Origin: Physcia stellaris
Lineage: Eukaryota; Ascomycota; Lecanoromycetes; Caliciales; Physciaceae
DNA length: 64,000 nucleotides
Assembly (NCBI GenBank): GCA_018902385.1
Contig: JABSSW010000021.1
Location: 650,331-714,330 of the forward strand
Reading direction: 5' to 3'
The translations under genes and the position numbers were made by a program. Below, one piece after another: positions 28,758 through 64,000 of this stretch. The notes under the pieces were generated by a model that saw only the letters and a list, made by a program, of their open reading frames with translations, searched no databases and was not told where the DNA came from. The stretch's first letter is position 1. Every line of letters starts with the position of its first letter.

Positions 28758-29639
28758 TTGACCTGTGAGAAGATATCTTTTAGAAGGATGTCTCTCCTCA
28801 ATGGTGAAGCGAGAAGCTTCCTACTGGTTTGCCCATTGTTATGTCTTCGGGGAAGATCCAAACAAGAGATAGTATGTCTTCCAATTCAAATCTTCCTCCC
28901 TGTCCCTGATTAGTTGTTTCCTTCATCCCATGATCATAGTAGCATGAAATGAGAAAGATGAGATAGTTCATATTGCGTGTGTCGGAAAACGTACTCGGAA
29001 AGCCGAGTCCTTGGTATACTCATCTCCTTAGAACTTCGAAAGTGCGTAACGACACTGGACGAAAACTCGCATCGCACAGCTTCAGTTGATAGCCCACGTT
29101 CTATTACCCCCTGCGGCCTCCCTGTAGGGGTTTCAACCCCTATGGTCTCAGCCACGGATGCGGGCCCACTCTCTTCTGACGCTGGCTCCGAAACATCACG
29201 ATGACTGATTCCCGGCCTGGTTATAGATAAGCCGACGACTGACCAAGCGTTAGCGCAGGAGGGTTCTGACCTTCGGTGATGGCGATTGTCATCGCATGTG
29301 GGGAAGACGGCTGTTTCCCCGCACGATGAATACATCATGCACGGAGGATGTTCAGCTCTCAAGCTGATCATAAACCAGATTACTCTAGTCATGCCGCAAG
29401 GCTGATGCACGAAGCGGTTATGCGTCATGAGCCAAGCTCACGATAGGACCGTATTAGCGAACAAGGTACGCCTGCAAATTGCAACAGCGCTTTCTCTTAG
29501 GGTTGGGGTTACCAAATATCACAGCTTTCGCCACCACCTCCACCTGGCATTATCGCCCTGTCACCATCACCACCACCATCGTCCTCGGAACACACTGACA
29601 ATTCACGATTATACGTTGAGACGTTGATGATTTTGCGTT
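28758..29639. other. Intergenic
   Basis: 880 bp. Contains a small perfect palindrome near 29,125-29,142 (TAGGGGTT and its complement, 2-nt loop) and a CAC/CAT-rich stretch near 29,530-29,585. A 164-codon minus-strand frame is not convincing. Confidence 0.4.
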
Positions 29640-30280
29640 CGAATATACACACAATTACGTTGAAATCGCAAAAATCGAACGTTTCGTTCGAGCAATTTTC
29701 AATTGACTTTTGATGAAATCAACATTTTCATTCTTTATATCATACAATATGATATGATATGACATGTCATGACATGATATATTATACAACATGATATACA
29801 TATACTTTTCTATAAAAATTCTTTTTAGTGTTTTTTCTTTTAGCGTCATTTTTAGCTCGTCGCATGTCGCATGTCGCATATCGTTGATTGCATTATTGTT
29901 ACGAAACTTGCAACTCAACGAAACAGCGTATATATTACGAAGTTTGTAATTCAACGAAACAGCGTATATACTACGAGATTTGCAACTCAACGAAACAACG
30001 TATAGATTACGAAATTTGCAATTCAACGAAACAACGTGTTACGAAATCAACGTGACAACGTTAACGTACAATTTTATTGACGATAGATATCAGATCGTTA
30101 ATGTTGCAAATAAAAAACGTATCAAATTTTGAATAATTTTTTTGATTCAATTGTTCAATTTGTATAATAAATTGTATGATAATCAGACAGTTGATTTGAA
30201 AATTTTTGTGAATTTTCGTCGTATCTCAAAATTTTTAGATTGAATACGAAATAGACTGTTTCGGAATAAGATTTATTCGC
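29640..30280. repeat. Small AT-rich degenerate island
   Basis: About 640 bp with base composition like the right-hand AT block but flanked by normal gene space. No protein trace is readable apart from repeats. It includes the 36-bp minisatellite below and near-palindromic ATGATATGACATG stretches at 29,745-29,790. Probably a mutated repeat insertion remnant. Confidence 0.6.
29899..30060. repeat. 36-bp minisatellite, about 4.5 units
   Basis: Units at 29899-29934, 29935-29970, 29971-30006 and 30007-30038 plus a partial one to 30060. Each reads roughly TTACGAAAYTTGCAAYTCAA then CGAAACARCGTATA. Differences between units are mostly C/T or A/G transitions. No open frame of interest. Confidence 0.85.
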
Positions 30281-56088: not shown

Positions 56089-56361
56089 CATCACGTCAGT
56101 AGTGCGCGAATTCTTTGAGCGTTGTTCTATAGGCCTTAGTTTTAGGCGGGTAAATGCAAACTCTGGTACTATTGAAGGTGGAAGGCTGTTTTGGGATGCT
56201 CTGCCCCCTCGTTGCCTCTGTCATCACGTCAATAATGCGCGAATTCTTTGAGCGTTGTTCTGTAGGCCTTAGTTTTAGGCGGGTAAATGCAGACTCTGGT
56301 ACTATTGAAGGTGGAAGGCTGTTTTGGGATGCTCTGCCCGCTCGTTGCCTCTGTCATCACG
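56089..56361 (+). repeat. 133-bp direct tandem duplication plus partial third unit
   Basis: Two full units at 56089-56221 and 56222-56354, each starting CATCACGTCA, plus the first seven bases of a third at 56355. The units are nearly identical; differences I can see are mostly G/A or C/T transitions (for example CAGTAG to CAATAA). Noncoding. High identity means a recent duplication or homogenisation. Confidence 0.9.
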
Positions 56362-56749: not shown

Positions 56750-58199
56750 ATGTTTGTCCGAACAGAGAAAGAAATCTACAATCAGAAGCTTATCATAGGG
56801 CTCACAACGACTCTCTTGATACTCTGCTACACATTCTACTTTCTTCGCATCCTATCTCGAAAGCTATTGCAGACTCCGTTATGGATCGATGATTGGTTCA
56901 TGCTCTTTGCCCTAGTAGGAACCCTCGACTCTGTCTCGATAACGACTTATCGTTGACACTTCAACAGTTCGTTTGCGGTGGACAGAGTGTTCTCAATTAT
57001 GTCGGTAAGAGCAATTAGGGTGGTTTTATGTCGCGAAAAACCTAAGCAGAACCTCTGAAGGAGTTCGCTATGGCTCTGGAGTACATCGCAGCCATCTAAG
57101 AGAATCGCAATATCAAGATTTCCAAATCGTAAAGTCTTCCACGCATAGTCTATCACCCCAACTAATACGTATTAGAGCCTGTATGTCTTCATGATGTTTT
57201 GGGCGCTCGGAGTAGCTGTAGTCAAGATTGGAATCTTGCTCTTCTATTGGCGAATCTTCATCGTATACCGATTCCGGCGCCTCGTCGCTATCGTCGGATG
57301 CCTTATTCTGACCAGCAGCTTGGCCATCTTTCTCTCTTTCATGTTGCAGTGTCGTTCAATCCCTCGTTTCTGGGCCGAGACAAGTGCTGGCTCTTGTATT
57401 GACCAGGTTGCGTTCTATATCTCTGCCGGCAGCATCAACATCGCCAGCGACGTGCTGGTACTCAGTTTGCCAATGAGACAGGTATGGAAGCTCAACGCGA
57501 CGGTTTACGAAAGGATGGCACTCACATTTCTCTTCTGTTTGGGTGGTTTGTAAGTCCACACGTATCTCACCGGGGTGCAAAGAATCTTAGCACTTAAAGC
57601 AAATAGTGTGTGCATCACGAGTATCTTGCGCCTCATGGCCCTCAACGACATTGATCCTGACGACTTCTCCTGTGAGCTTCCTCCCTAGTGGAGTGCCATT
57701 CCGACGTTGTGCTAAACACGTTGCAGATACTAACGTAGGAGGCGGCCTGTGGTCAACTGTCGAAGTACAGGTGGGCTTCATCTGTGCCAACTTACCGCAC
57801 ACCCGTCCCCTTGTGATCCGCTGGTACCAGCGTTGGCGGCCTCGTGGCCTCGTCCGCTCCAGCACCAGCGACTATCCTGACTCCTACATTACGCAGACCC
57901 ACCGCTCTCACCCTTCCCACCGCCACGATACGCTGGGATTCCAGAGCCTGGACTCCGATGGTAAGGCTGTTGGACAGGATACTGAGACCTTGGGTGGAGG
58001 TGAACAGGCTTACACTGGAGGCTTTGGCGAAGGAAATTTGGACCCTGAGGTCGGAGGTATAAGGGCACCTGGGGAAAGGATCAAGGTCAGGACTGAGGTG
58101 CGTCAGGAAGTACAGCGGATGGGGAGTCCGGGGCCTCTAAAATTGAAAAAGTGCTGGAGAAATGATACTGTGTCAACTGAGATTAGCGCGAAAGCGTAA
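56750..58199 (+). CDS. Fungal rhodopsin/Pth11-like (SAT4) membrane protein
   Basis: 393 aa from six exons: 56750-56914, 56968-57004 (37 nt), 57061-57128, 57176-57549, 57607-57671 and 57727-58199. Motifs of the seven-helix fungal family: LWIDDWFMLFAL, VRYGSGVHRSHLRESQYQDF, FMMFWALGVAVVKIGILLFYWRIF, a CIDQVAFYISAGSINIASDVL helix with paired Cys, and NVGGGLWSTVEVQVGFICANLP at the end of helix 7. A ~130-residue polar cytosolic tail follows. Family members are proposed GPCR-like receptors; ligand unknown. Introns 1 and 2 were chosen because they alone give the continuous VLNYVGVRYGSG join; the first 70 residues are less certain. Its stop codon lies exactly at the edge of the AT-rich block. Confidence 0.78.
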
Positions 58200-60281
58200 A
58201 AGTTGACGTGATCTAAAACAACGTCAAATAATTAATTTTTCTTTTCAAAAATGAATACGTTGTATTGCAATTTAAAGACGAGTAGTATACGGATTTTTCA
58301 TCTTGATAAATGAATTTTTCGCGTTCGATAAATGAATTTTTCTATTCGAAAATTTTTTCGAAATCGCTTTCGAGAATTTTTCGACTCATATTTTTTGTCA
58401 AAGTTCGATCTTGTCATACAAAAATGATTTTTTTGTTGAAAATATCTCAAAACGATTTATATTATTTAGTTTTTTATCTTTTTATCTTTTTGTTTTTTTA
58501 TTTGTTCAATTATTTCTTTATCTGTTTATCTTGCTGAATAAATAAATAAATTCTTTTTATAATAAAATATTCTGTAAATTCGCTTCGCGCGAAAAATCGA
58601 TCGGAAAAAATTTGAATCAATTTTGATTTCGTATTCGTTAAATTCGATAAATTCAATCAATACATAATTCACGTTTTCAAAGAAAAAAACGATTATATTT
58701 CATTTTATCAATCATCAAAATTTTTCAATTTCTGCAATTGTTGTATTGCATACATCGCAATCAACGATCACGTATCAATTTCATTTATTTACAAACAAAT
58801 TCGAAATTTTTTTAAAAAAAATTCTTTCAAACGTTTTCAAAATTAGAATTGAATTTAATAAAATTGTCAAATTCGACATTTCGTCATTGTTTTGCAACTT
58901 CACGAATTTCGCATTGCAATAACGTTTACATCTAATGAATAAAACAAACAATCGAAAATTCGTTTTGAAATTCAAAGTGAATTTTATTCAAATAATCAAT
59001 AATATCGAGAATTTATCGAATGCGCATTGAGTTATGATCGAAATCGCATTGAAACGTTGCAAACATTGCGAAAAGTCGCAAAACGAACACAAATTTGACA
59101 ACAACATAATTTTTCAAATCACAAAATTATTGCGATAATGAATCGATTTTCGTTGTTTTTGCAAAATTGAATTGCGTTCGTTTCGTTTTACAATTTTGAC
59201 TAAATAAATGAAAAAAATATGTGATTGTTGATTGCGATGCAAAATGTGCAACAATTGTACGAACGCAACAATTTTGATGATTGATCGAATCAAAAATAAC
59301 AAATTATTTCTTTGAAAACGTGAATTAAATATTGATTGAATTTATCGATTTTAAACAATACGAACGCAAAATTGATCAAAATTTTTTTCGATCGATCATT
59401 CGCGTTAAGCGATTTTTGTTGAAAAATACAATTTTCGCAAAAAAATAATCAAGAAATCAATTGATATAATTTAACGAAAAAAAAACTAATGCGTTTTTGT
59501 TGAAATTAGCGTCTTGACATTCGCACATTTTTTGTGTTTTCATTTCATGTATGTTATTAAAATAACGAAATTCAAAACAATAAAATGATAATCATTCATG
59601 ATTTTTTCAATAGATTATGAGAATCGAATTAACAGTTTTCGTTATATCTAATATCAATTACAACATGTCAGAAAACGTCGAACAGTAATAATTAATCGCA
59701 CGCAATACAACAATGTACACGCAACAATAATCAATTCAATAAAATATTTAATTTTGTCAAATTCGAAATCGATTCAATTGTATTGACAACATTTAATATT
59801 TTGATACACAATATATTTAATACGTTTTCAGTTATTTCAACAATAACATTTATTTATTTATTTACGAATTTTTCGAAATCGTCAACTTTCGATTTATTTA
59901 TTTATTTTCGCGAATTCGTTTATTTTACGAACATTTTACGATATGAAATCTTTTCGCGAATTCATTTATCATTCAGTCAAAATGACGATTCGTATTTTCT
60001 TTGTGAATTTCGCATTTTTTATTTCTTTTTCGACATTTGATTTTTTATTTTTTTTTCGTTTGTTTTTTGCGATTACGTATTTGAAAATCATTTCATGACG
60101 CAAAATTTTAAAACGTTGTATATCATGTATTTAATTGAAAATATTAAAATTTTGAAATGCAATTGATTCACTCAGACAAAAAAAACACAAGAAAGTTATC
60201 ATTTACGAAAACATGAATTGAAAATCAAAAACAAATTCAAAAAGAAAATGAAACAATTGACAAAACAAAAAAAAAATTCGT

Positions 60282-60545
60282 TTGATCAAAAAACGAACTG
60301 AAAAATATACGTGTAAACGTTGCAAAACGATCAAATTTGACAACAACATCAAGTTTCACGAATATATTCGCATTCGTCATGTCAAAAAATCGAAATCTGT
60401 TTCGTTGCAATCAATTGTTTCATTTTTTACGTTTTTTCAATCGATAATTTTTTCAGCGTTCACGTCATCGAAATTTTTATTTTTTCGATTTTTACATCAG
60501 AAATTGTACGCGAACGTTCAGAAAACGTATCATCGAAATCAATAA
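60282..60545 (+). pseudogene. C2H2 zinc-finger repeat-associated relic
   Basis: An 87-codon window reads YTCKRCKTIKFDNN then KFHEYIRIRH: C-x2-C, 11 residues, H-x6-H. It resembles a zinc-finger sequence repeated in AT-rich, transposon-dense parts of ascomycete genomes. The rest is mutated. It may belong to the same element as the Copia traces 2 kb downstream. Confidence 0.4.
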
Positions 60546-62475
60546 TCGAATTTCTAGTTATTTTTCAAAAAACGTGTCAGAATTTTTGTCCATTGCAACA
60601 TCAAAAAAATCGATATTTTGAGCAGAAATCGCTTCACGATCAATCGTTGCATTCAAGTTTTTTCGTTTTTCGATTGCGACATCAAAATCGATTTACATTA
60701 TTTTGAAAAAGTTCGCAATTTGTTGTTCGTTTGTTTCGTTTATTTCGTTTCGAATGTTTACATCATCGAGATTTTATTTGATCGTGAACGATTTGTTTCA
60801 CATGTTCGTTGAAAAATCGAATTCATTTGATTTGCAATCAAGTCAAAACAAATCGTTGTTTTTTCGCAATTTCGACAAATGCAATTTCGTCAACAAATGT
60901 AATTTCATACAAAATCGCATTACGTTATATTTTCATGCGATGATTTCATTTGTTTTCAAATCGATCAAATTCGAAACATTTTTAACAACACACGTTTCGA
61001 TAAAACAATCGACTCGTATGTTATTTTTTTTGTTTCGATTTATTTTTCGATTTTCTTTTTCGATGCGTTTTTCTTTTTCAATGATTTTTCGTTTATTTTT
61101 TGTTTGCAAACATTATCAAAAACGTTTCGTCATTTATTGATTTGTCGATTGAATTACGTCATTATATTGCTAAATGAATTCAGATTGAGATGATTTTCGT
61201 CGAATTTAAAAATTTTCGACATTTCAAAAAATTATTCAATTTTTTCGATTATTCAATTATATCAAACGCAATTTTCAAAATAAAATCATAATTTTGTTTA
61301 TAAAAATGTTTTTTTACATTTGATTCACAATTTAAATTTAATTATAACATACGATACAATCAACAACAAAAAATATTTCATTGCGCAATATTGCGACATT
61401 CAAAATTCATTCAAATGATAATTTTTCGAATTTTCAAATTAACAAAAATCAATAATAATTGATTGCAATTATTACATGATGTAATCAATTCGAAATTTCG
61501 TTTTTTCGTTGATACGTAATTTAAATTTTTAAATTTTGTTTTAAAAATTTAATTTACGTATCAACGAAATTGATTATTTTTTTATTGATTTCATGTTTTG
61601 TTTATGTTTACATTTTTGTATTTTTTCAAAACGCGTTATTCACAAATTCAACATCAATTGAATTGTTTTTTGACATTATCAATCATAAAATAATTTCATT
61701 TCAAAATAATGAATGATAATTTTCTATACATTGTTTTACACATTCAGAAAATCATATCAGCAATTTTTTATTACATTTAATATCAATTATAACATAATGA
61801 TAAATCACAACATGACAAAATATGAAATACATCGTTGAACAATACAGCAAATTTATGATATAACAACAATATTATTTCAATGAAATATTCAATTTTATTT
61901 AATCAAAAATCATTTTAATTATATTACACAATAAACGATATTGATTTTGTTTTTTGATTATCGATTTTGTTTAAAAGTTTATTAAATCGTTTTTACAAAA
62001 TGTCATTTTCGAACATATCAAAATTATTATTCAAAAAGTCAAATGATACGATTATTATCAAAAATTTTATCACAATCATATCGAATGCATCATCAAATAT
62101 TTTCATTTTGTCATTGTCAAATAAATTTGAAAAAACAAAAAGAAAAAATCACACAAACACAAAAATTAACAATATAACAATGATCAAAATCAAAATCAAA
62201 ATCAAAATCAAAATCAGAATTAAACGAAAAAAAAAAAAAACAAAAAAAACAACAAGAATAAAACGAAATCTGACAAAAATTTTTGAAAATCGATGAACGA
62301 AACGATAATTACGCATTCGATTTTCGTCGAAATTGTTGTTTTTTTGAAATCAGTCAATTTTGACAAATTTATTGTCGTCAAATTTTTTTTTCATTTTTGT
62401 CATTATCAAGATTTTGAATTTCAATATTGTTTGATTGTTCGATACGAACGTTTCTTTTCATATAATTAATAATCG

Positions 62476-62742
62476 TTGATTTTTATCAATTATATTGTCA
62501 TTTTCGATATTTCAATTGAAAACATAGAGAAAAAATTCAAATTTTTCGATTACAATATTGTGCGATTTTTTTGCGACATTTTCAACAAAAATCATTATTT
62601 ATTCATTTATCAAATGCTTTATATTTCAAATTGCATTTATAATTTTTTTTCTTTTTTTCAATTTCAACAAGACGATTGTTTTTTATTTATTATATTCAAC
62701 AATTTCGCAATGAGTAACAAGAACATTCATGTTTTAAAATAA
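62476..62742 (+). mobile_element. Ty1/Copia Pol relic: protease region
   Basis: Reads HYLFIYQMLYISNCIYNFFS, matching the region after the aspartic protease in Copia Pol (pattern VLYVPxxxxNLLS). Substitutions replace many conserved residues with Phe, Ile, Asn or Lys, as expected from C-to-T change on both strands. Same strand and about 0.6 kb before the integrase relic. Confidence 0.5.
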
Positions 62743-63117
62743 CAAAATTTTTACATTTTTCAATTCGACAAGTTCGTGATTTGTTTAATTGTCAATTAAA
62801 ACACGTTGAAAATGTAACACGAACGATTGAATCATTTAAACATTCAAAATATTATTCAAATAATTTATTAACATAATATTGATTTTTTAAATTATTATCA
62901 TCGAATTCGTGCATTTCTTGCGAAAAATTAATGACAAAACGAAATTTTATCGAAAATTTATTAAATCAAAACGTCACGTCGACGATTTTATTCACGATAA
63001 TTTGATGAATTTCTTTTCAAAAAAACAAAATGATGATTATTGAATAATAATTTGAATTAACGATTTCATTTAAATGTTTCACGTGAACATTTTATATGAC
63101 AAAACATTTTCGAAATT

Positions 63118-63366
63118 TTGATTTCATTCAAGAAATTTTTGAATATCATTAAACACGATCATTTTCGTTGCATTCGTTTACAAATTGACAACGATGATGA
63201 ATTTTTTGAAAATGTTTTTACGATTTATCGAGAGAAACGCGACATCATAATGAAATTTTTTATTGTTGAAAATTCTCAAATGAACGAATGCGTTGAACGT
63301 TTGAATCAAATTATCATGCGCAAAATCAACACATTTCTGAAAAACTCAAAATTGCTCATAAAATGA
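63118..63366 (+). mobile_element. Ty1/Copia Pol relic: integrase core
   Basis: Reads RLQIDNDDEFFENVF then NECVERLNQIIMRKIN, matching the Copia integrase pattern RLRSDNGGEF ... NGVAERxNRTL. The acidic residues at both catalytic positions are still encoded, but the surrounding sequence is mutated and closed by stops. No LTR recognised within the window; the element continues toward or past the right edge. Confidence 0.6.
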
Positions 63367-63666
63367 TGATTCGAATTTGTTAATGTTGTCAATCACATTC
63401 GCAACGTTTTCATTTTCATTTTCGTAATCGACGACAATGATAAATCAATATTTTTTTATCAAAAGTTTATTAATCATGTTTATTTTATCGAAAAATTTTG
63501 TTATATCGATTAAAAAAAAAAATATTTGATAATCAAATTCAATATTAATTGAAAAAAATTTCAAAATCATCGTTAACGTAAAATTTTGATAAAATACAAT
63601 GAAAAAATTATATATCGAATGATTATCATTTCGAACAATATTTATCGTTTTTTCAACGTCGAATGA

Positions 63667-63942
63667 TTGAACAACAAACGATTTTATTCAACGACAAAAT
63701 CATTTGCGCAAACATTTAAAAATCAAATCGACATTTTTTTAAACAATTTGAACGTGAAATTCAAAAATGACAATTATTGTATCGATGTCATTTATCGTTT
63801 CACACAAATTCAATCGCAAAAAATTTTTCAAAATAATGCGTTCGTGATTTTTGACATATTCGATTTCGAAAACGATTTCGAAAAATCGCGAAAACAACGT
63901 CAATTTGCTTTTTCGCTTTTCATTTTGAAAAATTCAATTTGA
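63667..63942 (+). mobile_element. Probable Copia relic downstream of integrase
   Basis: A 91-codon open stretch with no diagnostic residues, in line with the order protease-integrase-reverse transcript region. Listed only by position and shared composition. Confidence 0.25.
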
Positions 63943-64000
63943 TTATTTTTTACGTTGTTTGATAATGATGTCGACGAATTGATTATCAACATTTTCGATT

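Follow-up and report, generated by a model that had tools for sequence, protein, structure and literature searches.

Cytosines that stand before a pyrimidine (CpY) have largely disappeared from positions 58200-64000 of a 64,000-nt stretch of the lichen fungus Physcia stellaris (C21:650331-714330, hereafter the window, from an assembly whose 147 contigs total 43,974,083 bases). That a CpY mutation process is real in P. stellaris is, in our view, practically certain. Its context, its C-to-T direction, its action on both strands and its targets, which include several Copia families, an unclassified repeat and a ribosomal DNA (rDNA) copy, can be read from comparisons between copies, and it is not confined to this block. 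The explanation that we favour, at a probability of about three in four, is that repeats are inactivated by a CpY-specific mutagenesis resembling repeat-induced point mutation (RIP), probably through enzymes of the RID/DIM-2 class; that the process is RIP carried out by this class is likely. C would then be changed to T on both strands of repeats wherever the next base is a pyrimidine, nearly always at CpC, mostly at CpT and hardly ever at CpA or CpG. Duplication would act as the trigger and a RID-class enzyme, perhaps together with DIM-2, would set the CpY preference; as happens in Neurospora, the changes may arise in a burst near the time of sexual reproduction.

Context and direction of the mutations

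All counts were made on the window, on fetched repeats and on sampled stretches of the assembly. The block holds 762 cytosines, 709 of which stand before A (432) or G (277), 52 before T and a single one before C, where base composition would predict approximately 297 CpT. On the complementary strand the same loss is visible as 2 GpG and 61 ApG (observed/expected 0.03 and 0.26), while observed/expected ratios are 3.37 for CpG, 1.53 for CpA and 0.45 for TpA. GC content is 23.9% within the block versus 49.2% outside it, and the remaining 58199 bases of the window are ordinary (observed/expected CpC 0.94, CpT 1.04, CpG 0.91). The left edge is sharp: dense CC and GG stop at 58156, past which the block holds only the GG at 58291 and 58603 and the CC at 60590. 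The right end coincides with the end of the contig (714330 bases), so that the right edge lies beyond view. The first-pass annotation had claimed, from a few counted lines, that CpT and CpC were lost and CpA and CpG kept, that depletion of GpG and ApG implied both strands, and that TpA was not enriched, being absent from the line 59041-59100; the whole-block counts, and that line itself, bear this out.

In order to read the direction of change, each Copia pair was compared by taking its less mutated member as the starting point. Pooled over five pairs, three of which share the reference copy L032, C is replaced by T at 1155/1219 CpC, 1253/1696 CpT, 99/2222 CpA and 39/1818 CpG. Taking -ln(1-p) as a rate, this amounts to CpC:CpT:CpA:CpG of roughly 136:62:2:1, and the order of contexts in P. 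stellaris repeats is thus CpC>CpT>>CpA>CpG. Individual pairs agree, whether for L032 to L038 (CpC 226/241, CpT 214/357, CpA 6/448, CpG 0/344, with similar rates on the two strands), for L031 to L036 (429/458, 321/416, 26/479 and 23/422, in the same order), or from the unmutated L034 to L055 (291/324, 187/377, 29/430, 21/364) and to L056 (313/328, 276/382, 30/448, 9/366). In the opposite direction CpC is nearly empty, and CpT gives low to moderate values (from 2/99 up to 20/57) of the sort that arise if both copies are mutated. A 20-copy alignment of the dispersed 1.74-kb repeat, taken over all pairs and both strands, has C read as T in the other copy at a frequency of 0.70 for CpT, 47/47 for CpC, 0.085 for CpA and 0.083 for CpG. 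Across the pooled pairs the 5' base is of little effect (CpC 0.93-0.98, CpT 0.69-0.77), and so is the +2 base. The one exception is CCC, whose first C is changed less often (0.81), which is expected because mutation of the middle C first would leave a CpT. The annotation's proposal of an RIP-like C-to-T process that prefers a 3' pyrimidine is therefore supported by the copies, with two refinements, namely that the loss is heavier at CpC than at CpT and that an rDNA copy is also affected. Decay of methylated CpG, which would show as a loss of CpG, was considered and rejected given the CpG excess in the block and the few CpG changed in the pooled pairs.

Are these changes sudden or gradual? L032 and L038 differ at 461 sites over 3127 aligned columns, with 446 C>T or G>A changes and a single transversion; this favours a burst acting on near-identical copies. 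Slow decay, in which silent repeats are methylated at CpC and CpT by a DIM-2-type enzyme and lose their 5-methylcytosine through ordinary deamination without active mutagenesis, would hardly yield such a ratio; neither does it fit with CpC, instead of CpT, as the strongest context, or with CpG being left untouched. The presence of a DIM-2-like gene, the CpT preference given for Neurospora DIM-2 in excerpts of a 2026 review (PMC13297926; other papers below are likewise cited from excerpts), and the many other differences that separate L031 from L036 and L034 from L055 do speak for it, and we regard slow decay as unlikely. L032 itself contains 73 GG and 229 CC, 206 AG and 223 CT, and 100 TGA words against 13 TGG; this copy may represent an early stage in which a single strand is affected and CpC goes first.

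Common RIP thresholds are 1.1 for the product, 0.75 for the substrate and 0.01 for the composite index, and none of ten one-kb windows of the block passes them. The published thresholds are a product >1.15, which is stricter, a substrate <=0.75 and a composite >0 (PMC7882544). With a product index of 0.46, a substrate index of 1.54 and a composite index of -1.08, the block as a whole would be called RIP-negative. As CpA is what RIP is usually defined and recognised by, such indices give a false negative for repeats of the CpY type.

Unmutated relatives, an rDNA copy and candidate enzymes

The relatives L031, L034, L035 and L046 are unmutated, with normal CpC and CpT, from which it follows that the ancestors possessed these dinucleotides. 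Both this and the normal CpC and CpT of conserved ribosomal RNA (rRNA) contradict the idea that the ancestral elements already lacked them, which the annotation had named as one of two cases that would overturn its proposal; the other, C-to-T falling mainly on CpA, is likewise contradicted by the copy comparisons, where CpC and CpT are the sites of change. Its alternative of classic CpA-directed RIP followed by another bias is unneeded, because CpA has been preserved and there is no rise in TpA. We consider either of these two scenarios scarcely credible.

Beyond transposons, the process reaches an rDNA pseudogene, L057 (C41:45899-46052, minus strand, with flanks), that has been altered under the same rule. 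Against positions conserved in rRNA, taken from seven alignment blocks, U is read at 21/23 CpC, 14/27 CpU, 0/22 CpA and 0/24 CpG.

A profile search for C5 DNA methylases (PF00145), run in six frames and exon by exon such that further methylases could be missed, gave four matches at three loci. One (L008) matches the cytosine methyltransferase entries 9bap (E 2e-181) and 9baq (2.9e-181) of the PDB over 680 residues; we take these entries to be DIM-2, which would make L008 DIM-2-like. On contig C5, L009/P0001 has a methylase core with PPCQ and aligns with lichen relatives; from its motifs it is presumably RID. The locus at C6:791557-792528 (L007) is, as judged by eye, a second RID-like methylase gene, with introns. 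The search for RID and DIM-2 homologues that the annotation had proposed thus returned genes that look like both.

By broad features, then, the case resembles RIP: a methylase gene presumably of the RID/Masc1 class (L009/P0001, among the three PF00145 loci) is present in the genome, and C:G-to-T:A transitions are concentrated in the fetched repeats, single-copy DNA being spared in that the rest of the window and GC-normal samples show ordinary CpY. A different enzyme could be envisaged in the form of an APOBEC-like cytidine deaminase acting on single-stranded intermediates. The simplicity of the neighbour rule, as deaminases have, the eight matches to the deaminase profile PF00383 (similar in most control genomes) and the depletion of L032 on one strand only would suit such an enzyme. 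However, heavily mutated copies show both strands alike, and the mutated rDNA copy does not pass through a cDNA stage as retroelements do. Moreover, it is the 3' base that sets the context and the 5' base is of little effect, whereas known APOBEC rules depend on the 5' base. With PF00383 as the deaminase profile searched, we deem a deaminase highly improbable. One of the PF00383 matches carries four TGA and, by eye, reads as an ordinary gene with introns.

Several observations weigh against RIP by the RID/DIM-2 class. The present data link the process neither with mating nor with any named enzyme, and the RID and DIM-2 labels come from motifs and database entries. The canonical signs of RIP, a CpA preference with raised TpA and positive indices, are absent from the pooled pairs and from the block. 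Only the L032 pairs favour a burst, since transversions number in the dozens in L031-L036 and L034-L055. Furthermore, the open Copia copies L034, L035 and L046, of ordinary composition, are 95-97% alike over 3.2 kb and yet unmutated, so long similar repeats can escape; the 3-5% of sites at which they differ show an ordinary spectrum (only a few percent C>T at CpC), and they have more than 15 relatives at 70-79% identity among the matches listed. Perhaps these three arrived recently, or perhaps the process has become rare. Lastly, a 5.8S search of the assembly gave the mutated L057 as its single match, leaving no functional rDNA to compare.

Coding mark and the repeats of the window

Within the 61 best stop-bearing RVT_2 matches (of 137), the stops are TGA 239 times, TAA 41 times and TAG twice, an excess that is expected because TGG gives rise to TGA while CAA and CAG are spared. 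The mark that CpY mutation leaves in coding sequence is that of stops, mostly TGA, at Trp codons, with Pro and Gly lost and Gln, His and Met kept. When a stop-free segment from a mutated Copia copy was searched against proteins, it gave 10 matches of ENA source, holding over 1411 residues 0 Pro, 0 Gly and 3 Trp next to 75 Gln, 71 Met and 19 His; having been found through their likeness to a mutated query, these are no independent test. With an unmutated Copia piece, 3490 matches were obtained and 120 listed ones were examined. The five lowest in Pro+Gly+Trp among these 120 keep 3/17, 4/22, 5/22, 8/28 and 8/20 of the Pro, Gly and Trp of the query, and 15/18, 15/20, 17/20, 14/20 and 14/18 of its His, Gln, Met and Cys. 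The Copia fragments P0137, P0138, P0139, P0152 and P0248 come from ENA and similar assemblies (contigs of at most 262 kb); most of the query's Pro, Gly and Trp are gone from them, and His, Gln, Met and Cys are retained, the pattern that CpY mutation would produce. Five such fragments, as the extreme of 120, give hints that other genomes may share the CpY context.

An artefact of long-read assembly or sequencing has to be weighed as well, since the assembly derives from Nanopore data at ~31-fold and Illumina data at 30-fold depth (PMC7513301). Genes on the same contigs are normal, however, the altered sites obey a dinucleotide rule and fall at Trp codons, and open reading frame fragments from other (ENA) assemblies show the same residue losses, which reduces an artefact to a negligible chance.

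Table 1. Mutated tracts and repeat elements in the window (positions of the window)
Feature	Positions	Strand	Evidence
AT-rich block; CpC/GpG and most CpT/ApG removed, CpA and CpG retained	58200..64000		Dinucleotide counts; further genomic copies
Repeat with 216-nt inverted arms (58576-58791 and 59201-59416, 80% complementary)	58576..59416		Inverted-repeat detection; parts also copied elsewhere
Part of a dispersed repeat of ~1.74 kb	59413..61161	+	At least 28 other long copies, 73-79% identity
Probable Copia 5' part, cut by the contig end	61200..64000	+	Long copies at 86-94%; RVT_2 downstream at seven of these places
Second, isolated CpY-stripped tract of ~650 bases with ordinary flanks	29600..30260		Dispersed repeat, at least 76 matches (40 of 74 candidates scored)

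The block is a composite of repeats (Table 1); the isolated tract at 29600-30260 had gone unmentioned in the annotation of the block. Its inverted-arm repeat appears by shape to resemble a miniature inverted-repeat transposable element. For the 1.74-kb repeat, copy counts are lower bounds, with 40 of 559 candidates scored, and a Pfam scan of one copy in six frames, with X at stops, gave nothing above cut-off; an Rfam scan of the window returned zero matches. Beyond seven long copies of the last part (on C9, C27, C29, C48, C52 and twice on C84) an RVT_2 match begins after 267-307 bases, for which reason this part is probably the 5' portion of a Copia element, and the annotation's mention of Copia is probably right for the final 2.8 kb. 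Outside the block, a 133-base unit at 56089-56361 of the window is present in 2.1 tandem copies with 96% matches and is unmutated; perhaps it is too short for recognition.

As for the wider genome, eight arbitrarily chosen 10-kb stretches were cut into 160 windows of 500 bases, of which 8 were AT-rich. All 8 fell in one stretch and lacked CC and GG; the remainder had a mean CpY fraction of 0.51. The genome paper reports 46.57 Mb at a G+C of 43.32% (PMC7513301). From the G+C outside and inside the block, about 23% of the genome may be of the CpY-stripped kind, although the sampled windows gave less.

RIP in other fungi

Like RIP in Neurospora crassa and Trichoderma reesei, the process changes C to T on both strands of repeats, leaves AT-rich blocks with sharp edges, affects transposons as well as rDNA copies, and occurs alongside genes of the RID/DIM-2 class. 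In contrast, the order of contexts is CpA>CpT>CpG>CpC in N. crassa, and CpA~CpG above CpT>CpC in T. reesei (PMC5496416), and thus CpC comes last there and first in P. stellaris. A 2015 paper names CpA, CpT and CpG signatures, its excerpts leaving CpC unnamed; Botrytis cinerea, Sclerotinia sclerotiorum and Magnaporthe oryzae carry a CpT signature, with CpA also in each (PMC4352252). These three share with P. stellaris the presence of a RID/Masc1-class gene and a 3' T that ranks first or second among contexts, but differ from it in that their signatures include CpA. CpT is also prominent in some alignments of RIPCAL and of van Wyk et al. (PMC2621366, PMC7882544). Hypermutation of basidiomycete repeats is likewise a context-specific C-to-T change, directed at CpG and, in Pucciniomycotina, at TpCpG (PMC4014442, PMC4352252). 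The target there, however, is the best-kept context in P. stellaris.

Cladonia rangiformis is a Lecanoromycete, as P. stellaris is. Strong RIP has been reported for it, with AT-rich repeat blocks, sharp edges, and RID and DIM-2 homologues; its GC peak is ~16%, versus ~24% in the P. stellaris block, and no dinucleotide context was found in the excerpts of that paper (PMC12542154). A kingdom-wide survey states that the CpA preference is shared, and its 130 species with strong RIP all fell within four classes, none of them Lecanoromycetes (PMC12543289, as excerpted). The excerpts of the P. stellaris genome paper yielded no RIP analysis, its three 'RIP' words referring to fungal RiPP peptides (PMC7513301). 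Within the open-access literature, as far as its excerpts go and with subscription papers and most preprints outside scope, no CpC-first, CpA-sparing RIP was found.

We see about even odds that P. stellaris represents a lichen-fungal lineage in which a RID-class enzyme, either RID or the second RID-like protein, has its neighbour preference reversed to CpY, with CpC on top. The coding mark described here can be used to search for CpY mutation in other genomes and protein sets. With the usual methylase classes and another mutational readout, P. stellaris is a naturally occurring variant in which to ask what determines RIP context. If such a reversal is real, that context would be an evolvable trait encoded by the enzyme, and surveys based on CpA would be missing an entire class of RIP, counting it as absent.

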